From Gemmobacter lutimaris (GTDB lineage: Bacteria > Pseudomonadota > Alphaproteobacteria > Rhodobacterales > Rhodobacteraceae), in NCBI RefSeq assembly GCF_003570715.1, contig NZ_QXXQ01000001.1, forward strand, positions 124,001 to 188,000: 64,000 bases of DNA, read 5' to 3'. Each line of letters begins with the position of its first letter. The stretch's first letter is position 1. Below the pieces are notes generated by a model. That model saw only the letters and a list, made by a program, of their open reading frames with translations. It was not told where the DNA came from and did no database searches. Position numbers and translations under genes: made by a program. Positions 2,695 to 43,648 of this stretch are shown piece after piece.

Positions 2695-3552
2695 ATGCCC
2701 AAGCGCCCCCTGCCCCGACCGGAAAGCGACGCCCTCGTGCATGACGCTACGGCAGGTATGCCCCGCCTGCTGGAGATCATGGCCCGCCTGCGTGCGCCTG
2801 ACGGCTGCCCCTGGGACCGCGAGCAAGACTTCGCCACCATCGCCCCCTATACGCTGGAAGAGGCGCATGAGGTCGCTGATGCCATCGCGCGCGAAGCGTG
2901 GGACGAGCTGCGCCTTGAACTGGGCGATCTGCTGTTCCAGTCGGTCTATCACGCGCAACTGGCGGAAGACGCGGGGCTTTTCGCCTTCGAGGATGTAGTT
3001 TCGGCGATTTCCGACAAGATGGTTGCCCGGCATCCCCATGTCTTTGGCGACGAAAGCAACGCGAAAAGCGCCGAACAGCAGACGGCGGATTGGGAACGGG
3101 TCAAGGCCGCCGAACGCGGCCCGGCCCGCACGCTGGACGGTGTTGCCATGGCACTTCCGGCGCTGACGCGGGCGGTGAAGCTGCAAAAACGCGCGGCGCG
3201 GGTGGGGTTTGACTGGCCCTCGACCGCCGAAGTCGTGGACAAGATCGTCGAGGAGGCGCAGGAACTGACCGAGGCCCGCGACCGGCTGACCGAGGCCGAG
3301 GTCTTCGAGGAATTCGGCGATCTGATGTTCGTCGTCGCCAATCTGGCACGACACCTCAAGATCGACCCCGAGGCCGCATTGCGCGCCGCCAATGCAAAAT
3401 TCACCCGCCGTTTCGGCCGGATCGAGGATTGGCTGTCCGAAGCAGGCCGCAGCCCCGCCGACAGCGACCTCGCGGAAATGGACGCGCTGTGGAACCGCGC
3501 CAAGGCCGAGGAAAAGGCGCGAGGCACGGGCCAGGCGCCAAATTCGTTGTGA
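2695..3552 (+). CDS. mazG: Nucleoside triphosphate pyrophosphohydrolase MazG
   Basis: The 285-residue MazG hydrolyses (d)NTPs to NMP and pyrophosphate and acts as a housecleaning enzyme that can also lower ppGpp. The family signature is clear: LRAPDGCPWDREQDF and IAPYTLEEAHEVADAI (metal-binding EExxE helix), then LRLELGDLLFQSVYHA, with a second MazG repeat at VDKIVEEAQELTEA and EEFGDLMFVVANLARH. A stretch of ~20 residues precedes the usual E. coli start, so initiation at internal Met22 is possible. The ATG at 2695 has GGAG 8 bases upstream. The stop codon lies inside the first hairpin of a palindromic repeat (3541-3585). Confidence 0.95.
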   Translation: MPKRPLPRPESDALVHDATAGMPRLLEIMARLRAPDGCPWDREQDFATIAPYTLEEAHEVADAIAREAWDELRLELGDLLFQSVYHAQLAEDAGLFAFEDVVSAISDKMVARHPHVFGDESNAKSAEQQTADWERVKAAERGPARTLDGVAMALPALTRAVKLQKRAARVGFDWPSTAEVVDKIVEEAQELTEARDRLTEAEVFEEFGDLMFVVANLARHLKIDPEAALRAANAKFTRRFGRIEDWLSEAGRSPADSDLAEMDALWNRAKAEEKARGTGQAPNSL

Positions 3553-26290: not shown

Positions 26291-29200
26291 TCAGGCCATC
26301 AACAGCACCCGCGCCTCATGCGCGCGCAGGCTGCGCCGCGCCGCAAGGAAGGGCCGGTAGCGGCCTGCTGCCAGTTCGGGGAACAGTGCCAGCAGTTCGT
26401 TGCGCTGTGCGTCGTCCATCCCGGCCAACGTCATGTCACCCGGCTGGAAGCTTTCGCTCCAGGCACCATCCGCGCGCACGATTTCATGCCGGTCGAACAT
26501 CAGGTGAATGTAGCTGACCCCTTCCGGCATCGCCCGTTCCACCCCCGGCAGTGCGGTCAGATGGGTTGCGGCCACCAGCACCTCATGCTCGCCGAACAGC
26601 ATTTCGGCGCGATAGCCCGTGAACAGCATGCGATGCTGCGGGCTGACCAGCATGTCGCGCTGCGGCAGGTCGGGCGCCAGCGCCCCTGTGGCGATGCGCA
26701 CCGGGGCGAAGTTGGGATGTGCCCGCAACTCTGCTGCGGACAAGTCGCGCCGCCCGATCCAGCGGATCGGCTGATAGCCGCTGTCACGGGTCAGCACCTG
26801 ATCGCCTTCCTCCAACTGTTCCACCGGCACCTCGCCGCGCGCCGTCACGATCAGGCTTCCCGGTGTGAAGCAGGGGATCACCTTTTCGATGTCGGTGAAG
26901 GTCATCGTGCCGATGACGGCGCCGGTATTGTCGAGGAACTGGACCGTGCCGTTTTCGGGATTGCCGCTATCATAGATGATATTGGTCAGATCCTTGCCCC
27001 AGGCACTGAGGTCAAGCGTATCGAAATCGTCCCCGCCGCTGCCGCCATCGACCACGGCGCCGACCCCCGCCCCCGATCCCAGCGTGATCGTATCGCGGTC
27101 GTCACCGCCCGCGACGGTATCGGCCCCGGCATCCATCTGGATGTCGTCGTTGCCTGCCCCGCCATCCAGCACATCGTTGCCGCTACCGCCGCTCAGGGTG
27201 TCGTCGTCATCGCCCCCGTAAAGCGCATCATTGCCGGTGCCGCCATCCAGCTGGTCGGCGCCCGCATCGCCATACAGCGTATCGTCGCCCTGATCGCCCG
27301 ACAGCGTGTCGTCGCCATCGTCACCAGACACGAGGTCATTGTCGATGCCACCGAACAACAGGTCATTGCCCGTGCCGCCTGCCAGAGTATCGGCGTCATC
27401 CTGACCATAGATCGTATCGTTGCCGCTGCCGCCTGACAGGCTGTCGGCATTGTTCAGCGGATCGGGGTCGATGTCGTCTGTCAGTTCATACTGGCTGGCG
27501 AGGGCGTAATCCGGGTTAGCGGGGCTCAACCCGCCATAGATCAGGTCATCGCCTTCATCGCCTGCGATGGTGTCGCCACCTTCGTTGCCCTCCAGCGTGT
27601 CATTGCCAAGACCGCCATAAACGATGTCGTCATCGAATCCGGCATCAACGCTGTCATTGCCGTCGCCACCGTAGACCGTGTCGTTGTCATCGCCGGTCAG
27701 GATCGTGTCATTGCCTGCCCCGCCCAGAACGCTGTCGCGGTCGTTGTTCGGATCGGTGTCCGCCGGATAGGATAGCAGCGGATTGGTTGGATGGATGAAG
27801 CCCGTGTCAGGGCTGCCGGTGCCGGGTGCGGTGCGGGTGTTGATGTAGTCGTCGCCATCGCCACCATCAACCGTATCGCTGCCGGAATGGCCGATCAGCG
27901 TATCGTTCCCGACCCCGCCAGACAGCACGTCATCGCCATCCTCGCCATTGAGCGAGTCATTGCCATCGCCCCCCGACAGGCTGTCATTACCGGTGCCGCC
28001 CATGAGCGTATCATCGCCCGCTTCGCCCAGCAGCGTATCGTCACCCCCGTCACCGCTGAGCGAGTCATTCCCGTCACCGCCATAGACGGTATCATTGTCA
28101 GCGCCGCCCGCGATGACGTCATTGCCGCCGAAGCCGGTGATGGAATCGTTGCCTGCTCCGCCATAGATCGTGTCATTCCCGGCATCCGGGCCGCCGTCGA
28201 TGCGGTCATCGCCGTCGCCGCCATGCACGAGGTCATTACCCTCGCCCGCCGAGATCGTGTCATTGCCCGCATCGCCGGAAAGGCTGTCGTCGCCCGTTCC
28301 ACCGAACAGGTAATCAGCGCCATCATCCCCTGACAGGCTGTCATCTCCGGCATCGCCGGTCAGCGTGTCCGCCCCGTCGCCGCCATAGACAACGTCATTG
28401 CCATCGCCCGCGCCCAGCATGTCGTTGCCGGTGCCGCCATAGACCAGATCGTCGCCGGTGCCAGAATAGACCGTGTCATTCCCCGCGCCGGTATCCACCG
28501 TGTCATTCCCGGCATCGTCATTCACCGGGTTGACCTGATCGTCACCATCGCCGCCGGTGATGACATCATTGCCATCGGCGCCGAACAGCGTGTCATTGCC
28601 GGTGCCGCCATCCAGCACGTCGTCGCCCGCGCCACCGTCGAGAAGGTCATTGCCCTCCTCGCCGTAAAGCGCGTCATTGTCGGCCCCACCGTTCAGCGTA
28701 TCATCGCCGAGACCGCCATAAATCGTATCCTCACCAACGTCGCCAAGCAGAGAATCCGATCCGTCCCCGCCCAGCAGCGCGTCATTGCCATCGCCACCAT
28801 AGACGGTATCGTTTCCGCCACCGCCTGACAGGCTGTCATTGCCCGCCTCACCGTAAACGAGGTCTGCGCCATCTCCCGCCAGAACGGTATCGTCGCCCGC
28901 CCCGGCCTGCACAACATCGTCGGCGTTGCCATACTGGTTGTCATTGGCGTCAATCATGTCGCCTTCGGGATCGCCGCTGTAGGTCGCGTCGATCAGATCG
29001 TTGCCGGTCGTGCCCTCCACGATAAAATCGGGCGGAAAGACCTGCGTGCCGTCCACGAAGACGTTTTCGATATTGTAGAACTGGAGCGTTTCGCCCGAGG
29101 TGTAATGCACCACACCGTTCTCGGGGTTCAGCAGATCCCAGACGATATGGTCGATGCCCGTGACATGCAGCGTGTCATTGTCGGTGCCGGTGGTGACTGC

Positions 29201-32200
29201 CTCGCCACCATCGACATAATCGCCCGCGCCGCCGTAGAAGCTATCGGCATCTTCCTCGCCCAGCATGGTGTCATTGCCGGTGCCACCATAAATGGTGTCG
29301 TTGCCATCCGAGCCTTGCAGCCGGTCGTCACCCTCGTCGCCATAGACGATGTCATTGCCGCCCGAGCCGGTGACGCTGTCGTTCCCTGCGCCACCATAGA
29401 CGGTATCGGTGCCATAGCCGCCATAGACCTCGTCATTGCCGTCGCCGCCAAAGACCGAATCATCATCGGCGCCGCCATAGACGGAATCGTTGCCAAGCCC
29501 GCCATAGACCACATCGTTCCCGGCGTCACCGCGCAGGAAATCGTCGCCATCGCCAGCATCGACATAATCATTGCCGGCATCGCCCTGCATGTAGTCGTTG
29601 CCAGCACCGCCTTCGAGGCTGTCATTGCCGCCGCCGCCATAGATGGCATCATTGTCGTCGCCACCATAAACGCTGTCCGCGCCTTCCCCGGCGAAGATCT
29701 GGTCATTGCCCGCGTCGCCGGTGAAATAGTCATTGCCGGAGCCGCCGGTGATGAAATCGTCCCCGGCGAAGCCAAGCACCGTGGTGCCGGCGGTCGTGGC
29801 CGAAGCATCGACATAATCATTGGCATTGGAAGCCCAAAGCACCTCGATTTCCGAATAGGTGCCGCTGGTTCCCGAGGGGAAGCCGAAATTGGCCGTCTCA
29901 TTCCCCGTATAGGTGACATTGGCCCCTTCGGTGCCAAGGTTTTGCAGCCAGACCACATCGCGGTCGCCCGGATCCTCGCCGCCCACAATGGTTTCGGTGC
30001 CCGCGTTGGAGTAGACTGTGAACGTATCCCAGCCGTCACCGCCATACATCGTATCGGCGCCGGTGCCATAGGCGCCGCCGGTGGCGAAACTGTCATTGCC
30101 AGCCCCGCCATAGCTCAGGTCATCGCCCGCCCCGCCGTTCAGGAAATCGTTGCCGGTTTCCCCGTAAAGCGTGTCGTTCCCGGCGCTGCCCTGCAATTCG
30201 TCATTGCCGGTGCCGCCGTAAACCGTGTCATTTCCTGCGCCTGCGACGATCAGATCATCGCCACCATAGCCATAGATGGTGTCGTTCACCCCGTCGGTGC
30301 CGTCGATCTGGTCACCGTTCAGGTCCGTATAGCCGACATTCATCACATCATTGCCAGCGGTGCCATCCACCGGCCCCGCGAAGACGATGCTTTCGATCTG
30401 GCTGAAGGTCAGCGTGCCGCCCGAAACCAGGTCAATGGTGCCTGCCTCGTTGTTGCCACCACCGTAAGTGATGACAGATCCGGCCTCGACCACCAGAACG
30501 TCATTGTCATTGCCGGTCTCGCCGCCGGTGATGGTATCGCCCGCGCCGCCCCAGATCGTGTCGGCATCGGCACCGCCCGACAGCGCGTCATTGCCCGCGC
30601 CGCCATAAATGACATCATTGCCCGCGCCGCCATCGACCGTATCATTGCCGGTGCCGCCATCCACCGTATCATTGCCGGTGCCCGCGACCAGCGAGTCATT
30701 GCCGTCGCCCCCGCTGACAGAGTCGTTGCCCGCCCCCGCATCAATCGTGTCATTGCCCGCCCCGGCGAGGATCGAATCATTCCCCGCCCCGGTCGCCACG
30801 CTGTCGTTGCCGACACCGCCATAAACCGTGTCGTTGCCGGAACCGAGCGTGAAGGTTTCGATCTCGCTGAAACTCGCCGTCCCCCCGCTGGAGGACAGCG
30901 TGCCCGCCTCGGCCCCCGAGAAAGTCAGCGTCACATTGGAGGTCAGGGCAGACCCGTCGATGCTGTCGCCCGCCGTCTCGGTGGTTTCGCCGCCGGTGAT
31001 CGTGTCATTGCCATAGCTGCCGGACAGGACGAACCTGTCATCCCCCGCGCCGCCGCTTTGCACATCGGCGCCGCCGCCGCCCGTGATTGTATCGTTGCCA
31101 GTGCCGCCATAAAGGCTCTCGGCGCCCGAACCGCCGGTGATGCTGTCATTCCCAGCACCGCCGTCGAGGATATGCGTGGTAGTGCTGGCGGCTGCGTTGA
31201 TCGTGTCATTGCTGCCGCTGCCATAAACATTCTCGATTTCCGAGAAACTCACCGTGCCGCCCGACAGGCTGACGGTCCCATTCTCGTTGCCCGAGAAGGT
31301 CACATTCACCCCGGTAGTGACCAGCGTAGCGTCCAGCGCATCGCCGGTCGTTTCGCCGGTCTCGCCACCGACAATGGTATCGGCGTCGCTGCCGCTGCCG
31401 ATGTTCAGATAGAAACGATCATCGCCAGCGCCACCGACAAGGCTGTCGTTACCCGTGCCACCGAACAACGTGTCGTTGCCAGCATCGCCGAAAACCGTGT
31501 CGTTGCCCGCATCGCCCTGAAGGTAATCATTGCCATCGTCGCCATGGATCAGGTCGTTGCCATTGCCGCCATAGACGCTGTCATTGCCTTCATCGCCGTA
31601 AAGCCGGTCATCGCCATCACCACCGGAGATGGAGTCATTCCCGGTGCCGCCATAGACGATGTCATTTCCCACGCCTGAGGTAACGGTATCGTTGCCCGCA
31701 CCAGCATAAACGAGGTCGGCGTTGCCGGTGGTGCCCTGCACACCCAGACCGTCATTGTTGTCGATCCGGTCGCCATCCGGGTCGCCGACATAGGCGCTGT
31801 TGATGTTGTCATTGCCCGAAGTGCCCGAGACGATCCCGTCTTTCGTAACCGCCGTCGAGGTGTGGATGGTGACGAAGCCGACATCGGTATTCCCCATCCC
31901 GTCGGACACGGTATAGGAAAATGGCTCGTCCCCGGTGGTGCCGTTCGAGAAGACGGTAACAGTGCCATCCGCGTTCAGCCGCACCTGCTGCCCCGACGGC
32001 AGCGTGATCGTCTGCCCCGCGACGACATTCTGGCCGTTCAGCTGCGTGATGCTCAGCGTCGAGCCGGAGGGATGCTCGTCATTGGCCAGAATGTCATAGG
32101 TGCGCGACGAATTGGTCAGCATATTGACCGTATCGTCATTGGCCAGCGTATAGGTCTGCACGCTGTCGCCCATGATGAGCAGATTGGAATCGTAGATCGC

Positions 32201-32875
32201 ATCGCCGCCATCGGCGACCCCGATCTTGATGGTGTTCACCTGCCCCGCATTCACCGGCGCCTTGATCGACAGCACATAGGTCAGGCCGTCCATCTCGGTG
32301 TTGTATTGGTCGGCGGTGTTGTCGCGGTAAAGGTTTTCATTGTTGCCCGCGTTGACCGTGTCGATGGCCACATTGCCCGAGGTCGAGACGCTGATGGGCG
32401 CAAAGACACCGTTCACCCAGACGCCAAAAGCATCGTTCACGCCGCCGCTGACATATTCCGGGTATTCTTCGGACGAGAACACGAACTGCATCGTGATCAT
32501 GTCGCCGTCGGGGATGAAACTGGCCTGAAGGATCGAGCCGTCGAAGGTGCTGACGCCAGAGACGGCATTCAACTGCGCGTCGCCATCAATCCCGCCGGTC
32601 ACATCGGTGCCGGTGTTGGTGTTGACGTTTGTGTTGGTGGTGCCCGAGCTGTTGGTGAAATCGGCCGCATTGCCGGTAGACAGGATCACCCCGGTATCGG
32701 TGGGCGATACCCCGGCGATGGTGGTCAGCGCGCCGGTATAAGTGGCCGAGGATCCAGCGGCACCGCTATAGGTGGCCGTGCCGCCGACAAGCTGGACGCC
32801 ATTGCCGAAAATGGCATTGAACATCTGCTCCGCCGTTGCGGCGGTATTGATCGAAAGTTCGTTTGCAATGGCCAT
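26291..32875 (-). CDS. Giant RTX protein with choice-of-anchor L domain and C-terminal Hint domain
   Basis: This 2194-residue predicted secreted protein has four parts: residues 1-240, a choice-of-anchor-L-like beta domain (SSEEYPEYVSGGVNDAFGVWVNG); 245-338, an Ig/cadherin-like domain; about 350-1990, RTX nonapeptides (GGxGNDxLx) that bind calcium; and 2002-2194, a Hint domain starting CFTPGSLIVTARGEVPVEQL, with block-B-like VSPQHRMLF. The only cysteine I see is Hint residue 1 (Cys2002), the nucleophile of Hedgehog/intein-type self-cleavage. There is no Sec signal, as expected for type I secretion, but no type I export genes are nearby. The composition is acidic and Asn/Asp/Gly-rich. The start has a modest GAGTG site. 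Confidence 0.92.
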   Translation of the reverse strand: MAIANELSINTAATAEQMFNAIFGNGVQLVGGTATYSGAAGSSATYTGALTTIAGVSPTDTGVILSTGNAADFTNSSGTTNTNVNTNTGTDVTGGIDGDAQLNAVSGVSTFDGSILQASFIPDGDMITMQFVFSSEEYPEYVSGGVNDAFGVWVNGVFAPISVSTSGNVAIDTVNAGNNENLYRDNTADQYNTEMDGLTYVLSIKAPVNAGQVNTIKIGVADGGDAIYDSNLLIMGDSVQTYTLANDDTVNMLTNSSRTYDILANDEHPSGSTLSITQLNGQNVVAGQTITLPSGQQVRLNADGTVTVFSNGTTGDEPFSYTVSDGMGNTDVGFVTIHTSTAVTKDGIVSGTSGNDNINSAYVGDPDGDRIDNNDGLGVQGTTGNADLVYAGAGNDTVTSGVGNDIVYGGTGNDSISGGDGDDRLYGDEGNDSVYGGNGNDLIHGDDGNDYLQGDAGNDTVFGDAGNDTLFGGTGNDSLVGGAGDDRFYLNIGSGSDADTIVGGETGETTGDALDATLVTTGVNVTFSGNENGTVSLSGGTVSFSEIENVYGSGSNDTINAAASTTTHILDGGAGNDSITGGSGAESLYGGTGNDTITGGGGADVQSGGAGDDRFVLSGSYGNDTITGGETTETAGDSIDGSALTSNVTLTFSGAEAGTLSSSGGTASFSEIETFTLGSGNDTVYGGVGNDSVATGAGNDSILAGAGNDTIDAGAGNDSVSGGDGNDSLVAGTGNDTVDGGTGNDTVDGGAGNDVIYGGAGNDALSGGADADTIWGGAGDTITGGETGNDNDVLVVEAGSVITYGGGNNEAGTIDLVSGGTLTFSQIESIVFAGPVDGTAGNDVMNVGYTDLNGDQIDGTDGVNDTIYGYGGDDLIVAGAGNDTVYGGTGNDELQGSAGNDTLYGETGNDFLNGGAGDDLSYGGAGNDSFATGGAYGTGADTMYGGDGWDTFTVYSNAGTETIVGGEDPGDRDVVWLQNLGTEGANVTYTGNETANFGFPSGTSGTYSEIEVLWASNANDYVDASATTAGTTVLGFAGDDFITGGSGNDYFTGDAGNDQIFAGEGADSVYGGDDNDAIYGGGGNDSLEGGAGNDYMQGDAGNDYVDAGDGDDFLRGDAGNDVVYGGLGNDSVYGGADDDSVFGGDGNDEVYGGYGTDTVYGGAGNDSVTGSGGNDIVYGDEGDDRLQGSDGNDTIYGGTGNDTMLGEEDADSFYGGAGDYVDGGEAVTTGTDNDTLHVTGIDHIVWDLLNPENGVVHYTSGETLQFYNIENVFVDGTQVFPPDFIVEGTTGNDLIDATYSGDPEGDMIDANDNQYGNADDVVQAGAGDDTVLAGDGADLVYGEAGNDSLSGGGGNDTVYGGDGNDALLGGDGSDSLLGDVGEDTIYGGLGDDTLNGGADNDALYGEEGNDLLDGGAGDDVLDGGTGNDTLFGADGNDVITGGDGDDQVNPVNDDAGNDTVDTGAGNDTVYSGTGDDLVYGGTGNDMLGAGDGNDVVYGGDGADTLTGDAGDDSLSGDDGADYLFGGTGDDSLSGDAGNDTISAGEGNDLVHGGDGDDRIDGGPDAGNDTIYGGAGNDSITGFGGNDVIAGGADNDTVYGGDGNDSLSGDGGDDTLLGEAGDDTLMGGTGNDSLSGGDGNDSLNGEDGDDVLSGGVGNDTLIGHSGSDTVDGGDGDDYINTRTAPGTGSPDTGFIHPTNPLLSYPADTDPNNDRDSVLGGAGNDTILTGDDNDTVYGGDGNDSVDAGFDDDIVYGGLGNDTLEGNEGGDTIAGDEGDDLIYGGLSPANPDYALASQYELTDDIDPDPLNNADSLSGGSGNDTIYGQDDADTLAGGTGNDLLFGGIDNDLVSGDDGDDTLSGDQGDDTLYGDAGADQLDGGTGNDALYGGDDDDTLSGGSGNDVLDGGAGNDDIQMDAGADTVAGGDDRDTITLGSGAGVGAVVDGGSGGDDFDTLDLSAWGKDLTNIIYDSGNPENGTVQFLDNTGAVIGTMTFTDIEKVIPCFTPGSLIVTARGEVPVEQLEEGDQVLTRDSGYQPIRWIGRRDLSAAELRAHPNFAPVRIATGALAPDLPQRDMLVSPQHRMLFTGYRAEMLFGEHEVLVAATHLTALPGVERAMPEGVSYIHLMFDRHEIVRADGAWSESFQPGDMTLAGMDDAQRNELLALFPELAAGRYRPFLAARRSLRAHEARVLLMA
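26906..31828 (-). repeat. RTX calcium-binding nonapeptide array in the 2194-residue protein
   Basis: The region encodes residues ~350-1990: dozens of GGxGxDxUx nonapeptides interrupted by beta-rich inserts of the form TGVNVTFSGNENGTVSLSGG. The coding bias makes the opposite strand nearly stop-free, which produces long spurious reading frames there. Confidence 0.9.
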
Positions 32876-33320
32876 GGCGTCACTCGTTCACAGCTTGAGG
32901 GGAGGAAGGCCGGAGGGCAAAGGTCGCAGAATGGCTGCCACCCCCGCGCCGCGCCGACAGGGGGCAACGCAAGACCAACAACCTTCCGGGGCACAGAAGA
33001 CCCATCATCCCGATCCACTTCACAAATCATGGCCTCGTCACCGCCCGGCAGGCGGAACACAGACCTCTACAGGATCGGGTTACGCGCCGATCATGGCTGA
33101 ATAGTGGTTCAGGATGGACACTTTATTGACGCGATCCCCGCGAAACGGGGCAAAATAATGACACTGTATTTAAAAATAAATTCAATCACTTGTGACCTGA
33201 CCTTCGTTTCTCCGCCGGAAACATGGCACAAGTGTTAACGTAGCCCGCGCCACTGTGCGAAATGCAGAAAAGGGGCCCAAAAGGCCCCTTTTCGCAACAA
33301 ACACCACTTGTAACGCTGAC
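32876..33320. other. 445-base gap between the two RTX genes
   Basis: No gene is visible. The part near 33130-33220 is A/T-rich (for example TATTTAAAAATAAATTC) and probably holds the promoter of the 2194-residue protein. A small CCCCG-CGAAA-CGGGG hairpin lies near 33143. The terminator of the second RTX gene is at 33268-33292. Confidence 0.6.
33268..33292 (-). terminator. Terminator after the 956-residue RTX-Hint gene
   Basis: The perfect 10-base stem AAAAGGGGCC / GGCCCCTTTT lies 29 bases after the stop codon at 33321. The U-run is part of the stem, giving TTTT at its 3' end when read on the minus strand. Confidence 0.8.
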
Positions 33321-36191
33321 TTATTTCACCAGAAGACGCGCCTCGTGCTTCTTCAGCGTGCGCCGGGCGGCGCCATATGCTTCGCGGCCGGTATCGGATT
33401 TCAGATCCGGAAAGATCTCGAAAATCTCGTTGCGCTGGGCATTGCCCATGCCGTTCAGCGTGTAGTCACCCGGCTGGAAGCTCTCGGTCCAGGCTCCGTT
33501 CGACAGCACGACTTCGTGGCGGTCGAACATGAAGTGGATATAGGTCGTGCCCATGCTGTCCACCTCGTGCACGCCGCGCCCGGCCACCAGATGCTTGGCC
33601 GCCACCAGAACCTCATGCTCGTCGAAGTAAAGCGCTGTGCGATCATTGGCCACCAGAACACGGTGGTTCGGGCTGACCATCATGTCACGCTCCGGCAGGC
33701 CGTTGCCAAGGCTGCCCTTGCGGATCAGGATCGGCTTCAGATGCGGGTTCAGCGACAGGTCGGTCCAGTTCAGCGCCTTCTGGCCCACCCAGCGGATCTG
33801 CTGAATGCCATTGTCGCGGGTGATCACCCGGTCGCCGGCCTTCAACTCTTCCACCGGCACCTCGCCGCGCGGCGTGGCGATCAGCGTGCCGGGGGTGAAG
33901 CAAGGGATGACATTCTCGATATTGGTGAAGGTCAGCGTGCCGGTGACATTACCGTCGCCATCGAGGAAATCGACCGTGCCGTTTTCCGGGTTGTCGGCGG
34001 CATAATGCACCACCAGCGGCCCGGCGCTGCTGAGGTCGAGCGTATCGTAGTCGTCGCCGCCCTCGTTTCCGTCGATCACATCACCGATGCCATCCTCGGC
34101 CGAACCGATGACAAAGGTATCGCGGTCGTCGCCACCGGACATTTCATCGGCACCATGGCTGGCCAGCAGGGTATCATTACCCTCGTCGCCGAAAACGGTG
34201 TCTTCGTCGATGCCACCGTCCAGAACGTCGTTCCCGACACCGCCATAGATGACATCATCGTCATCCATGCCGTAAATGGTGTCATTGCCCAGATCGCCAT
34301 AGATCGTATCCATGCCGTTGTCGGGGCGCAGATCCGTCGCGTCGGGAATGTTGATCTCATCCGGGAATCTCGGGTCCAGCCCGCCATAGGCAAGGTCATC
34401 GCCATTGCCGAGGTCGATCAGGTCCGATCCCTCGCCGCCGATCACGGTATCGTCGTCGCGGCCGCCATAGATGGTATCGGCGTCAATGCCACCGTCGATC
34501 AGATCGTTCTCGTCGCCGCCATAGATCAGGTCTGCGTCGTCGCCGGTGCGGATCGTGTCATCACCGTCGCCGCCATAGACGGTATCCAGATCATTAAAGG
34601 GATTGGCGTCATCCGGGTAGAGCCCCGGATACCCCATATCGGGCCGGGGGATGCCGGTGGCCGAAGTGTCGATCAGGTCATTGCCCTGACCGCCATTGAC
34701 GAAATCATTGCCGTTGCCGCCATAGACGCTGTCGTCGCCATCCCAGCCGATGACGGAATCGTCGCCCGGCCCGCCATAGACCACATCATTGCCGGTTCCG
34801 GCATAGACCGAGTCGTCACCGACGCCGGAATAGACGGTATCGTCGCCGTCGCCCGCGCGCACACGGTCGTCATTCGGGTCATCGCCCGGAATGATCGCGT
34901 CATTCGCGTCGATCCGGTCACCATCCGGGTCGCCGGTATAGGAGGTGTCGATCAGGTCATTGCCGGGGGTGCCATCAACCCAGCCGTCCCGCGGCGGTGC
35001 GGCCACGTTGACGGTCACCGTGGCGGTATCGGTCAGCCCGTCCGGATCGGTGATCGTATATTCAAAGCTCGCATCGCCCGAGAAACCGGCGTTCGGCGTA
35101 AAGGTGATGGTACCATCGCCGTTCACCGTCACGGTGCCATCCGGCGAGGTGCCAGCCGACACGACCGACAGGCTGTCGCCATCCACATCGGTATCATTGG
35201 CCAGAACCGCGATCACGACCGGCGTGCCCGCATCGGTGCTGGCGTTGTCGTTCACGGCGTCCGGCGCATCATTCACCGGATTGACCGTCACCGTGACGGT
35301 CGAGGTCGCGGTATTGCCGTCGGGATCGCGGATTTCATAGGTGATGGTGTCGGTGCCGTTGAAATCGGGATTGGGCACATAATGCAATGTGCCGTCGCCG
35401 TTTACCGAAACCGTGCCATTGGGGGCCGCGCCGCCCGTCACCGTCAGGGTCTGGCCCTGCGGATCGGTGTCATTGTCCAGAACCGGAATATCGACGGCAA
35501 CATCCTCGTCGGTTTCCGCCACATCGGGGTTTGCCACCGGGTCTTGCGAGCCGTTGTCCACCGTGTCGGAAATCGAGAAATACTCCACCGATCCGGCGAA
35601 ATGCTGGTCGATGTTGTTCAGCACATAGGGATCGGAATGGGCCTGGCCTGCACCGATCATCCAGGGCTGGTTGATGCCTTCACTGCTCTGGTCCATGGTC
35701 AGGCCGGCAGGCACATCATCCGTGAAGCTGGTGCCCTGGGTCAGGTTTTCCAGATCCAGACGGCCGCCGTTCGCCTCGTCCCAGGAATACGTCAGCTTGA
35801 TCTCGTCACCCGGCGACGAAAAGCCCGGCGTCGTGGTGAACACGGTCGAGCTGGTATCGGTCTCATGGGTGATGACCACGCTGCCATCGCCCAGAAGTTC
35901 GACCTTGTAGCCACCGGGGGTTTCGCCCGTGCTGTCACGCGACAGGATGGTCTGGGTATCCGCAACCAGATTTTCCGACGAGGTGAACTGTATCTCCAGT
36001 GTGCCGCGATCCATCTGGAACGTCGGATCGGCATAAATCTTCACCAGATCATTCTGGCCGTCCAGAACCGCCTGGGTTCCGTTCGAGGCGGCACCGTTCA
36101 GATAGATCCCGTCCTGCGCCCCGTTGCCGAGAGCCGAGTCGCGGGCGTGGCTGTCCGTATCCTCGAAATTGTAGAGCGCGAAAACCGGCAT
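33321..36191 (-). CDS. RTX protein with LamG-like, cadherin-like and Hint domains
   Basis: This 956-residue paralogue of the adjacent giant protein has a LamG-like jelly roll at residues 1-210 (MPVFALYNFEDTDSHARDSA), two cadherin/VCBS-like repeats at about 217-305 and 309-397 (each with LDNDTDPQG or LANDTDVDG and VNGDGT), RTX nonapeptides at about 408-700 and a Hint domain at 764-956 (CFTPGTLIATPRGEVPVEEL). Its two flanks, DYDTLDLSS and DNPENGTVDFLDGDG, match those of the giant protein. Cys764 is the only cysteine I see. Both Hint domains are exactly 193 residues and end KHEARLLVK or AHEARVLLMA. GAGGAA precedes the ATG. Confidence 0.92.
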   Translation of the reverse strand: MPVFALYNFEDTDSHARDSALGNGAQDGIYLNGAASNGTQAVLDGQNDLVKIYADPTFQMDRGTLEIQFTSSENLVADTQTILSRDSTGETPGGYKVELLGDGSVVITHETDTSSTVFTTTPGFSSPGDEIKLTYSWDEANGGRLDLENLTQGTSFTDDVPAGLTMDQSSEGINQPWMIGAGQAHSDPYVLNNIDQHFAGSVEYFSISDTVDNGSQDPVANPDVAETDEDVAVDIPVLDNDTDPQGQTLTVTGGAAPNGTVSVNGDGTLHYVPNPDFNGTDTITYEIRDPDGNTATSTVTVTVNPVNDAPDAVNDNASTDAGTPVVIAVLANDTDVDGDSLSVVSAGTSPDGTVTVNGDGTITFTPNAGFSGDASFEYTITDPDGLTDTATVTVNVAAPPRDGWVDGTPGNDLIDTSYTGDPDGDRIDANDAIIPGDDPNDDRVRAGDGDDTVYSGVGDDSVYAGTGNDVVYGGPGDDSVIGWDGDDSVYGGNGNDFVNGGQGNDLIDTSATGIPRPDMGYPGLYPDDANPFNDLDTVYGGDGDDTIRTGDDADLIYGGDENDLIDGGIDADTIYGGRDDDTVIGGEGSDLIDLGNGDDLAYGGLDPRFPDEINIPDATDLRPDNGMDTIYGDLGNDTIYGMDDDDVIYGGVGNDVLDGGIDEDTVFGDEGNDTLLASHGADEMSGGDDRDTFVIGSAEDGIGDVIDGNEGGDDYDTLDLSSAGPLVVHYAADNPENGTVDFLDGDGNVTGTLTFTNIENVIPCFTPGTLIATPRGEVPVEELKAGDRVITRDNGIQQIRWVGQKALNWTDLSLNPHLKPILIRKGSLGNGLPERDMMVSPNHRVLVANDRTALYFDEHEVLVAAKHLVAGRGVHEVDSMGTTYIHFMFDRHEVVLSNGAWTESFQPGDYTLNGMGNAQRNEIFEIFPDLKSDTGREAYGAARRTLKKHEARLLVK
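34092..34970 (-). repeat. RTX calcium-binding array in the 956-residue protein
   Basis: The region encodes about residues 408-700 with GGxGxDxUx-type nonapeptides, opened by the module GTPGNDLIDTSYTGDPDGD that also occurs in the larger paralogue. Confidence 0.85.
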
Positions 36192-40935: not shown

Positions 40936-41832
40936 TCAGCGCGCCGGTGCGACGCGCTGGCTGTGGATCAGCCACAGACCGGACGCCACGACCAGCGCCG
41001 AACCGACCCAGAGATGCGCGCCGGTCACCTCGCCGAACAGGTGTTCCCCAAGCAGTACCATCCAGAGGAACTGGATATTTGCGATCTGCATCACGACGTA
41101 GGCGGGCAGCATGCGCAGGATCACGACCATCAGCCAGCGCGTGCCGATGATGAACAGCGTATAGGCCAGCAGCAGCGCCAGATCCGACAGGACCATGGGT
41201 TGCCAGACGAAGGGCGCCAGCAGCGCCCCGAGGATCAGGCAGGCGAGTTGCGCATAAAAGACCTGCGCCATGGAATGTGTGTGGCTTTTGCAGATCCGAC
41301 GCGACAGCACGATGGAAGCAGAGCCGGAGAGGCTGGCTGCGAGGCCAATCCAGTGGCCCGTGGTAATGCCGCTGATGCCTTCGGGAAACAGGAACAGCAT
41401 GCCTGCAAGGCCCAGCCCCAGCGCATACCAGATCGTCGGTGCCAGCCTTTCGCGCAGCACAAGGCCGGACAGAACTGCGCCGAAGATCGGCATGATTGCG
41501 ATGAAGACAAAGATTTCCGCGAAAGGCAGAAAGCGAAGGGCATAGAAGAAGCCCGTCGTGCTGATCGCCCCCAGCGCCGAGCGCAACGCCACCAGACGCG
41601 GGCTGCCGGTGTGCAGGACGCGGTCCCCCTGCCCGGCTGCGACCGCCCCCAGACCCAGCAGAACCGCAATCAGCCCGGACAGCAGCATCAATTGCGGCGC
41701 GGCATAGGACGTGATCAGGTCCTTGGCGATCGCATCGGCGCTGACCGAAATCAGGGTGTTCACAACGACAAGTCCCGCACCGATCAGCGCGGTTTTCTGC
41801 AAGACGGGACGAAGACCAACCTCTGCCGTCAT
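40936..41832 (-). CDS. EamA/DMT-superfamily transporter
   Basis: This 298-residue protein has about ten hydrophobic helices in two EamA repeats; the first ends near GISGITTGHWIGLAASLSGS, and conserved features are ALGAISTTGFFYALRFLPFAE and QIANIQFLWMVLLGEHLFGE. DMT transporters usually export metabolites or amino acids. Its start overlaps the stop of the 363-residue unknown gene by one base (TGATG), so the two are translationally coupled. Together with the repeat peptide gene they look like one unit, in which this protein could export a small product. Confidence 0.88.
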   Translation of the reverse strand: MTAEVGLRPVLQKTALIGAGLVVVNTLISVSADAIAKDLITSYAAPQLMLLSGLIAVLLGLGAVAAGQGDRVLHTGSPRLVALRSALGAISTTGFFYALRFLPFAEIFVFIAIMPIFGAVLSGLVLRERLAPTIWYALGLGLAGMLFLFPEGISGITTGHWIGLAASLSGSASIVLSRRICKSHTHSMAQVFYAQLACLILGALLAPFVWQPMVLSDLALLLAYTLFIIGTRWLMVVILRMLPAYVVMQIANIQFLWMVLLGEHLFGEVTGAHLWVGSALVVASGLWLIHSQRVAPAR

Positions 41833-42923
41833 CAGGCCCCCTTCCTGACCGGGCCAGAAATGGCAACCGGCCGGGCGAAAATGGCGAAGAAGGTGGCAAA
41901 GTGGGGGCTTTCCGTCATACCGCGGTCAGCAACCTCCAGGGCTTCCGGGGACAATCGTGCAGCACAGGCCCGCCGCATCGCCCCGTAATCCGGCTCACGC
42001 CGCGCGCCCTGTGCCATCAAGGCCTGCGACCATTCACGCAAGGGGCTGATCAGGGGACGGAAAATGCTAAATCGCATGGGGCCAGCCAGATAATCATCGC
42101 CAAAGGCGGTTTCCCCAATACTCCCCATCAACCAGTGATTGACAAGAAAATTATGGTAGGCATCGGAAGAATCTTCGCAGGGGCCCGGCGCGATGCGGAA
42201 CGACGTTGCCTCGCCCCGCAGGAAGCCCAGCCAGAGTGGCGGAAGGGCCTGCCCCGTATAGTGCAGTGCGATGCAGACCTCACCCAGAAGATCGCCGTTC
42301 TGTTCGAGCCAGGCCAGATTGCCCAGCATGTGCAGCGACTGAAGCGCCGGTTCCGGCAGGCTCAGCGGGCGGCGGCCATATTCTGACAGATAGAAGATCG
42401 CATGCAGAAGGTCATAGGCTGCGCGCGGATTGGGCAGGGCAAAGGTTTCGGGCCGCGCCATGAAGCGATGGAGCCGCGCATCAAGGCCCGGCAGATCGAC
42501 AGTCTGACCGGCACGCGCCAGCAAAAACCGGCTTTCGGCGCGCTGAAGGTCGTTCACCTCCATCTCGATCCAGCCCTCTGCTGCGATGCGCGCGGCAAGA
42601 CGCGCGGCCGTATCACCCGGCTGTCCCAGATCCTCCAGCCAGACGGCAAGACCCAGCAGCATGCGATAGTATTGCGGATGGAAGGCAAGCTGATCCTCCA
42701 GCCCGGCATGGAACGCCCCGTAGGCGGCCAGCGCAGCCTCTGGCGGGCGTTGGCCAAGCGCGCTCAGGATCATCAGCAGTTCCGCGTTTTCCTTCAGCCA
42801 CCAGGCATCGCCCTGGCGCCTGCGACCATTGGCGAAGGTGGACAGAAGGGAAGTGAGCCCGCCATTTGCGCCCAAGGCAGGACGGGCCGCGCGACGCGCG
42901 GCAAGGCTTACGATGTTCGACAT
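41832..42923 (-). CDS. Unknown 363-residue helical protein of the LMPCSN peptide locus
   Basis: I do not recognise a named family with certainty. The protein is soluble and helix-rich, with segments WIEMEVNDLQRAESRFLLARAG (about 118-140, in two helices), YDLLHAIFYLSEYGRRPL (about 165-182), NGDLLGEVCIALHYTGQAL and YHNFLVNHWLMGSIGE. The HxIFYxSxxGRR and DLLxExxxAL patterns resemble actinobacterial terpenoid-cyclase-like (alpha/alpha-barrel) proteins of unknown function; this likeness is from memory. It lies 77 bases downstream of the repeat peptide gene, with a good GGAGAGGG site, and is coupled to the transporter. It may be the peptide-handling enzyme. Confidence 0.8.
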   Translation of the reverse strand: MSNIVSLAARRAARPALGANGGLTSLLSTFANGRRRQGDAWWLKENAELLMILSALGQRPPEAALAAYGAFHAGLEDQLAFHPQYYRMLLGLAVWLEDLGQPGDTAARLAARIAAEGWIEMEVNDLQRAESRFLLARAGQTVDLPGLDARLHRFMARPETFALPNPRAAYDLLHAIFYLSEYGRRPLSLPEPALQSLHMLGNLAWLEQNGDLLGEVCIALHYTGQALPPLWLGFLRGEATSFRIAPGPCEDSSDAYHNFLVNHWLMGSIGETAFGDDYLAGPMRFSIFRPLISPLREWSQALMAQGARREPDYGAMRRACAARLSPEALEVADRGMTESPHFATFFAIFARPVAISGPVRKGA

Positions 42924-42956
42924 TCGCCCTCTCCGGCAGGGTGCCCGGCAGGAAAG

Positions 42957-42992
42957 CCCCCCTTCGGCGCCGGGCGAGGCGAGGAAGGGGGG
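42957..42992 (-). terminator. Hairpin between the repeat peptide gene and downstream genes
   Basis: The perfect 9-base stem (42957-42965 with 42984-42992, arms CCCCCCTTC / GAAGGGGGG) has a GC-rich loop that can fold further and is followed on the minus strand by CTTTCC. It lies 8 bases after the peptide stop. It probably acts as a partial terminator or stabiliser that raises peptide output relative to the two following genes. Confidence 0.7.
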
Positions 42993-43000
42993 CCGTCAGC

Positions 43001-43297
43001 TCAGTTCGAGCAGGGCATCAGTGCGACGCCCGCACCGGCCACCATGGTATCGCCCTCGATGTTCGAGCAGGGCATCAGGTCCGCGGCCTTGCCGGTCTCG
43101 ACATTCGAGCAGGGCATCAGATCAACGCCGAAGCCGGTTTCGATGTTCGAGCAGGGCATCAGCGCGATGCCACCACCCATCAGCATCTCGGTGCCTTCGA
43201 TGTTCGAGCAGGGCATCAGATCGGCGCCAAGGCCCATCGACATGTCGGCAACAGTCGCGGCTTCGGTGACTTCGGCGAATTTACGCAGTGCGCTCAT
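43001..43297 (-). CDS. Repeat peptide with five LMPCSN motifs (candidate multicore precursor)
   Basis: The 98-residue peptide starts MSALRKFAEVTEAATVADMS, a leader-like 26 residues, then carries LMPCSN at 27-32, 46-51, 60-65, 74-79 and 93-98, the last ending at the stop codon. The steps are 19, 14, 14 and 19 residues. Short linkers read IETGFGVD and VETGKAAD; long linkers IEGTEMLMGGGIA and IEGDTMVAGAGVA. All five Cys are in the motif. The ATG at 43297 has GGGGG 6 bases upstream; a longer frame to 43375 lacks a site. It looks like a multicore RiPP precursor or a Cys-repeat metal-binding or signalling peptide. Function unknown. Confidence 0.85.
   Translation of the reverse strand: MSALRKFAEVTEAATVADMSMGLGADLMPCSNIEGTEMLMGGGIALMPCSNIETGFGVDLMPCSNVETGKAADLMPCSNIEGDTMVAGAGVALMPCSN
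43004..43219 (-). repeat. Five near-identical 18-base units encoding LMPCSN
   Basis: Copies lie at 43202-43219, 43145-43162, 43103-43120, 43061-43078 and 43004-43021. Four are identical, with AAC for Asn; the copy at 43103 uses AAT. Near-perfect DNA identity within the motif, but not in the linkers, points to recent duplication or strong constraint on the motif. Confidence 0.9.
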
Positions 43298-43648
43298 GTT
43301 AAACCCCCGTGGTTTGAGCAGTGTTTGCCACCCGAGCGTTGCATCTAGTGATTGATTTTTCAAAGAAAATTGCATTCACAAGTTGTGTTCAACCTTATCC
43401 ACAGACCGGCTTCGAAACAAGTGCCGGATTGCGTTAACCAATCGGGCGAAACTGTGACTTATCCACCTTCGCCTCAAGCGTGAACAATCCACAGACGGGC
43501 CCGCAAGACTCGATTCGCAAATATTAACAAAGCCTTAATATCACAAGCTTTCCCAACCTGCCCCGGTCGGCCCGTGCTGCGGGGTTGCGGTCAGCCGCGC
43601 CGCAGGCGATAGAGGTCTGGCCCGATGTCCGACAGCCGCGGAGGCCCG
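43298..43648. promoter_or_regulatory. Divergent promoter region with DnaA-box-like and CtrA-box-like sites
   Basis: The 351 bases between the repeat peptide gene and xth are unusually A/T-rich. TTATCCACA at 43395-43403 is a perfect DnaA box; TTATCCACC (43459-43467) and CAATCCACA (43485-43493) are weaker matches in the same direction. TTAA-N7-TTAA at 43524-43538 matches the CtrA consensus of alphaproteobacteria. CACAA-G-TTGTG (43378-43388) is a small palindrome. These suggest cell-cycle or CtrA control of one or both genes. I see no gene here. Confidence 0.5.

Follow-up and report, generated by a model that had tools for sequence, protein, structure and literature searches.

A repeat-peptide gene and its DUF6902 partner as a putative multicore RiPP-like cassette in Rhodobacteraceae

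What does a short unannotated gene encode when it spells the same hexapeptide five times, and what might act on its product? The window, by which we mean the whole 64,000-nt stretch of Gemmobacter lutimaris DNA analyzed here, carries such a gene on its minus strand. Translation of the open reading frame (ORF) at 43001-43297 yields 98 aa that begin MSALRKFAEVTEAATVADMSMGLGADLMPCSNIEG and end LMPCSN*, and it bears out the layout given in the initial annotation: after 26 residues come five LMPCSN motifs, starting at residues 27, 46, 60, 74 and 93 (steps of 19-14-14-19), the last of which runs into the stop, and each Cys lies inside a motif, one per motif. We refer to the repeated motif as a core by inference only, no modified product having been shown.

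43001..43297, minus strand: repeat-peptide gene, 98 aa, putative multicore precursor (translation; homologue in 11/11 species of the genus)
43220..43297, minus strand: leader-like residues 1-26 (leader role inferred)
43202..43219, minus strand: core 1 LMPCSN, residues 27-32 (translation)
43145..43162, minus strand: core 2 LMPCSN, residues 46-51 (translation)
43103..43120, minus strand: core 3 LMPCSN, residues 60-65 (translation)
43061..43078, minus strand: core 4 LMPCSN, residues 74-79 (translation)
43004..43021, minus strand: core 5 LMPCSN, residues 93-98, abutting the stop codon (translation; like ending in 11/11 congeners)
42955..42994, minus strand: stem-loop between the peptide gene and the DUF6902 gene (predicted; weak evidence)

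The repeat peptide and its homologues

In 5000 residue shuffles of the window peptide, no hexapeptide occurred more than twice (0/5000). The 184 window ORFs of 60-250 aa served as the control, and among them a five-fold hexapeptide was found in this peptide alone; the runner-up, with a hexapeptide present three times, is the antisense shadow of the same gene. Together, the shuffles and the ORF control indicate that the repetition of LMPCSN is not due to chance. A ribosome-binding-like GGGGG stretch lies 5′ of the ATG. The predicted stem-loop is no more stable than shuffled sequence (z -0.7), and the z score below -2 in 32% of loci for a stem-loop after the peptide gene came from cruder shuffles, so we retain it as a weak feature only. 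Pfam and NCBIfam offered no credible family for the repeat peptides, the weak matches being low-complexity noise.

Every species sampled in the genus (11 of them) carries a homologue with 4-7 motif copies, in which the frame is kept and the gene ends exactly at the motif. Between the window species and its nearest relative (G000 and G001), differences at codon positions 1/2/3 number 7/3/24, which, with the frame kept in 11 species, suggests that the ORF is under selection as a protein. The motif itself changes between congeners: it reads LMPTSN in all 4 copies of G002, LMPASN in all 7 copies of G005, and LMLCSN or MMLCSN in a third species, and one relative has a lone LMPASN among LMPCSN copies. 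The motif Cys is thus dispensable, and motif changes are coherent within a protein. The checks proposed in the initial annotation support its multicore inference, in that homologues exist, repeat number varies between species and the motif stays fixed within each protein. The order of linkers noted earlier, long-short-short-long, is present, but its symmetry is incidental, as four-copy relatives have long-short-long and the window species has one extra 14-residue unit.

Across Rhodobacteraceae, the motif is 5-6 residues long, kept within each protein and different between genera. The cores include FTSWS, FCSWS, FISWS, FVSWS, FTNWC, FTSGS, FSSGS, FASGS, FPSGS, FTSGL, FTCGL, FTSSL, FTTSM, FSTSM, FTSCA, FTTSC, FITSC, MMCCS, MMSCS and ALSPSC. 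No residue type is common to all motifs, and most motifs outside the genus lack Cys. Proteins of the wider family carry from 2 to about 20 copies, most share the M[ST]A..K start of the window peptide, many end at the motif, and a G-[DEG] pair stands 5-6 residues ahead of the core. When proteins were aligned on their cores, the first residue beyond the selected 4-mer was 0.97 identical within proteins and most flanking positions 0.26-0.56, with consensus identity between proteins of about 0.1-0.5. In a metagenome-assembled Pseudooceanicola genome (L143), the cores stand nearly back to back (FTSGSTALFTSGSTAL...) in an ORF whose end lies about 67 nt ahead of position 3035, suggesting that a long spacer is not strictly required.

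The initial annotation also pointed to near-perfect conservation of the 18-base coding unit against drifting linkers. Within the window this is correct, the sole change among the five copies being a synonymous AAC to AAT, but it does not extend to the wider family, where residues identical between copies use the same codon in a fraction of 0.61 in cores vs 0.60 in linkers. As codon agreement is alike in both, we attribute core uniformity to amino-acid-level selection on the peptide; homogenization at the DNA level as the cause of motif identity is unsupported (61% vs 60%).

A near-constant partner and its cassette

Directly downstream of the peptide gene lie two further genes on the same strand.

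41832..42923, minus strand: DUF6902 gene, 363 aa, probable core-modifying enzyme (PF21843, E 1.1e-103; DUF6895, E 2.9e-21)
40936..41832, minus strand: EamA transporter gene, candidate exporter (PF00892); its start overlaps the DUF6902 stop

A search of genome contigs with a single repeat peptide gave no match, as one short repeat peptide is too divergent for this, and relatives' loci were located by a DUF6902 alignment search of the contigs. DUF6902 was found in 83 of the 296 sampled genera of Rhodobacteraceae; none was found on the plasmids searched. A repeat-peptide gene lies directly upstream of it in 70/72 one-per-genus loci and 80/80 named loci, two sets that overlap in genomes and are not additive. 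The script itself counted 67 and 79; L071, L072, L095 and L181, where the peptide gene starts at or beyond the contig end, were added by eye. Among full DUF6902 loci, just L099 and L116 have no repeat peptide upstream; L116 is a highly divergent member (24% identity) that may act on another substrate.

Among loci read at sufficient length, EamA directly follows DUF6902 on its 3′ side in 52/71 one-per-genus loci, 66/77 named loci and 7/7 loci of the own genus; about a quarter of DUF6902 loci lack it. The best matches to the window EamA in DUF6902-free genomes are only about 20-31% identical, vs a median of 42.6% for EamA proteins beside DUF6902 in other genera. This comparison of identities is suggestive of a dedicated EamA that is absent from DUF6902-free genomes, but does not prove the absence. 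The trio of peptide, DUF6902 and EamA is also found in one genus of another proteobacterial class, at a different chromosomal site next to what we take to be acyl-CoA-dehydrogenase-like and ribulose-phosphate-epimerase-like genes. There the cores read FGCYT/LGCYT/YGCYT in G663 and FGCYA/YGCYN/FGCYK in G965, with DUF6902 and EamA next in both; in G895 the contig ends just ahead of DUF6902, leaving only DUF6902 and an EamA-like ORF in view. Recurrence of the trio at an independent site in another class argues that the three genes work together. The inference of a multicore precursor, which the homologues, their varying copy number and the identity of the motif within each protein already supported, is further strengthened by this near-constant DUF6902 partner and frequent transporter partner.

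The ExoIII gene xthA, which is divergent, adjoins the cassette in 128 Rhodobacteraceae loci, and a convergent gene for Fe-S assembly stands beside the cassette in the window. Conservation in the neighbourhood extends to xthA, EamA and housekeeping genes. By Pfam, no leader peptidase (B) or lasso cyclase (C) gene was found among the window neighbours, and next to the pair of peptide and DUF6902 we recognized no gene for a cyanobactin protease, ATP-grasp, LanM or radical SAM protein. PADLOC returned no match. Elsewhere in the window, several tandem arrays of 27-nt units lie in 27241-36191, where the minus strand at 33321-36191 also encodes a large protein bearing Hint, cadherin-like and RTX calcium-binding repeats; we regard the proteins of this region as ordinary RTX-type surface or secreted proteins.

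The region upstream of the peptide gene contains a further conserved element.

43395..43403, plus strand: DnaA-box 9-mer TTATCCACA, exact at no other window position, within the upstream region that xthA shares
43459-43467: one-mismatch copy of TTATCCACA, upstream of the peptide gene

The 9-mer is the perfect E. coli DnaA box and has been used for finding origins in Rhodobacteraceae (PMC6699656). In 149 upstream regions, each of 500 nt, it was counted 129 times, vs an expectation of 0.67 drawn from the same loci; 35/65 one-per-genus loci have one or more exact boxes, and 26 loci (among L046-L205) have two boxes exactly 76 nt apart. None of the 22 readable xthA upstream regions of DUF6902-free genomes contains it, indicating that the boxes come with the cassette. 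No DnaA binding has been shown, and the site remains putative, identified by its letters alone.

Family relations and predicted fold of DUF6902

Membership of the DUF6895 Pfam family requires a score above the gathering cut-off of 23.8 bits, which the window DUF6902 protein meets at 76.5 bits, as do two other DUF6902 relatives at 92 and 74.2 bits, all with partial coverage of the profile. DUF6902 is rich in invariant polar residues. In an alignment with DUF6895 members from other phyla and classes, eight residues are invariant (W42, Y170, H174, F177, G183, D211, E215 and H257) and two almost invariant (Y178 and Y256), at 16-21% identity between the families. On these profile scores and alignments, DUF6902 is homologous to DUF6895, as a distant relative. 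According to the title of a paper cited in PMC13352647, DUF6895 proteins are lasso-peptide epimerases (Shi et al. 2026, doi 10.1021/acscatal.5c08590), a function with which the invariant His and acidic residues that DUF6902 shares with DUF6895 are compatible. A small peptide gene also stands ahead of DUF6895 genes on Kitasatospora, Streptomyces and Pseudalkalibacillus plasmids and in two proteobacteria; in a fourth plasmid case, from S. fungicidicus, a small ORF is two genes away. We note in addition an alphaproteobacterial DUF6895 gene (L214, 7900-10576) that follows two paralogous short peptides (...GPDLGGSAGSLVGPWFVL...), with a papain-like C39/C70 protease gene further upstream; this is likely another RiPP-like locus.

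An AlphaFold model of the window DUF6902 (47 sequences; pLDDT 91) is all-helical except for two short strands. Foldseek returned nothing for it at E <= 0.001, and a search of the PDB by sequence gave no match. The VIA-align list is consistent, with alpha/alpha toroids ranked all through it (Z 9-11.6): class II terpene cyclases such as squalene-hopene cyclase, the beta subunit of farnesyltransferase and C3d-type domains, with an rmsd of about 4 over 206-244 residues. Helical folds easily reach high scores, and so we consider the model only suggestive of an alpha/alpha toroid. Given that only a toroid resemblance is at hand, we do not claim membership of the LanC or prenyltransferase families.

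Interpretation and comparison with known systems

A multicore RiPP implies a ribosomal precursor with a leader and repeated cores, and the peptide fits this description if its leader-like start is indeed a leader. We therefore favor, with reasonable though not full confidence, a multicore RiPP-like precursor whose cores DUF6902 modifies, a protease releases and EamA exports; neither a product nor any modification or cleavage has been seen. The architecture and its conservation, the gene pairing, the homology and a fold prediction are what the data show; core modification, its chemistry, release and export are inferred. In the proposed scheme, the precursor would consist of a short leader-like start followed by repeated units, each combining a spacer with a core of 5-6 residues (LMPCSN in the window); the core sequence may change freely between lineages while staying uniform within one precursor. 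DUF6902, as a predicted toroidal enzyme homologous to DUF6895, would act on each core, an unidentified protease would free the cores and the EamA transporter would carry the small product out. The most likely reaction would be epimerization of a core residue by His/acid chemistry, perhaps to D-residues; this specific activity is inferred, and we put it at somewhat short of an even chance. Several points weigh against the scheme as a whole: neither a protease nor a classical RiPP enzyme is encoded alongside, the relation to DUF6895 is distant (74-92 bits, partial model), about one locus in four lacks EamA, and L099 has DUF6902 without a visible precursor.

Other readings overlap with this scheme or compete with it. 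DUF6902 could carry out another chemistry on the same cores, such as cyclization or a transfer reaction, as toroid folds host varied reactions (farnesyltransferase beta and terpene cyclases among them) and DUF6902 is only 16-21% identical to DUF6895. We think this a lesser possibility, because the absence of a core residue type common to all motifs fits a backbone-centred reaction and because epimerization is the only function reported for the wider DUF6895 family, as far as the title cited in PMC13352647 tells. The peptide might instead be an intracellular scaffold or regulator, its repeats serving as docking sites for DUF6902, with motif and binder co-evolving. The repeats do co-occur with DUF6902, no secretion signal or protease was noticed and the upstream DnaA boxes hint at a cellular role, but a docking motif would sit poorly with extreme divergence between genera and uniformity inside each protein, with the many relatives that end at the motif, with a transporter in the cassette and with homology to a family whose epimerase function we know by title, making this reading improbable.

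A Cys-repeat metal-binding protein with one ligand per motif, an alternative raised in the initial annotation, would account for five evenly spread Cys in the window peptide, yet Thr replaces it in every copy of G002 and Ala in every copy of G005, and most motifs of other genera have no Cys, so it is hardly tenable. A lanthipeptide or other Cys-dependent RiPP was rejected on the same evidence, and a lasso peptide for want of adjacent B and C genes by Pfam among the window neighbours. At the speculative end of the preferred multicore reading, DUF6902 would epimerize the cores into tiny D-amino-acid peptides, exported by a transporter of the drug/metabolite type, that act as lineage-specific signals or anti-competitor agents, a use that the rapid turnover of cores between lineages would reflect; expression would be tied to DnaA, the replication initiator, via the paired boxes, and the whole would constitute a new RiPP class. 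Taken as a whole, this is doubtful.

The locus seems to represent a class of short ribosomal natural products not described so far. No open-licence paper that we found names DUF6902 or the core motifs; a description elsewhere is possible. Besides another proteobacterial class, the pair spans 83/296 sampled genera of the Rhodobacteraceae, a marine family of high abundance to which Ruegeria, Phaeobacter, Roseovarius and Shimia belong. If the multicore reading is right, it would represent a minimal RiPP pathway of a precursor, one enzyme and, in most cases, an exporter, and nature would supply dozens of core variants on which substrate scope, enzyme chemistry and biological role are directly testable, and it would give DUF6902 a function. 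The link to DnaA boxes raises the separate question of whether peptide production is coupled to the cell cycle.

Among known systems, the DUF6895 family, lasso-peptide epimerases by the title available to us, is closest: DUF6902 passes its cut-off, shares the invariant W, Y, H, F, G, D, E and H and likewise has a small peptide gene directly upstream, but here no lasso enzymes are adjacent, the enzyme would act on a repeat peptide that holds many short cores, and DUF6902 has its own Pfam family. MslH is a lasso-peptide epimerase with two His/Asp pairs and a metal-dependent calcineurin-like fold (PMC10406935). By analogy, the two invariant His and two invariant acidic residues of DUF6902 could play a similar part in epimerizing a ribosomal peptide, in an all-helical rather than a calcineurin-like framework. 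Class II terpene cyclases and farnesyltransferase beta resemble the predicted alpha/alpha toroid of DUF6902, but at about 10% identity and with no evidence of a common reaction. Cyanobactins and some graspetides are made from multicore RiPP precursors in which a leader, repeated cores and spacers are encoded beside an enzyme gene. The window peptide shares this layout in one ribosomal precursor, whereas its minimal set comprises only the peptide, DUF6902 and, usually, EamA.
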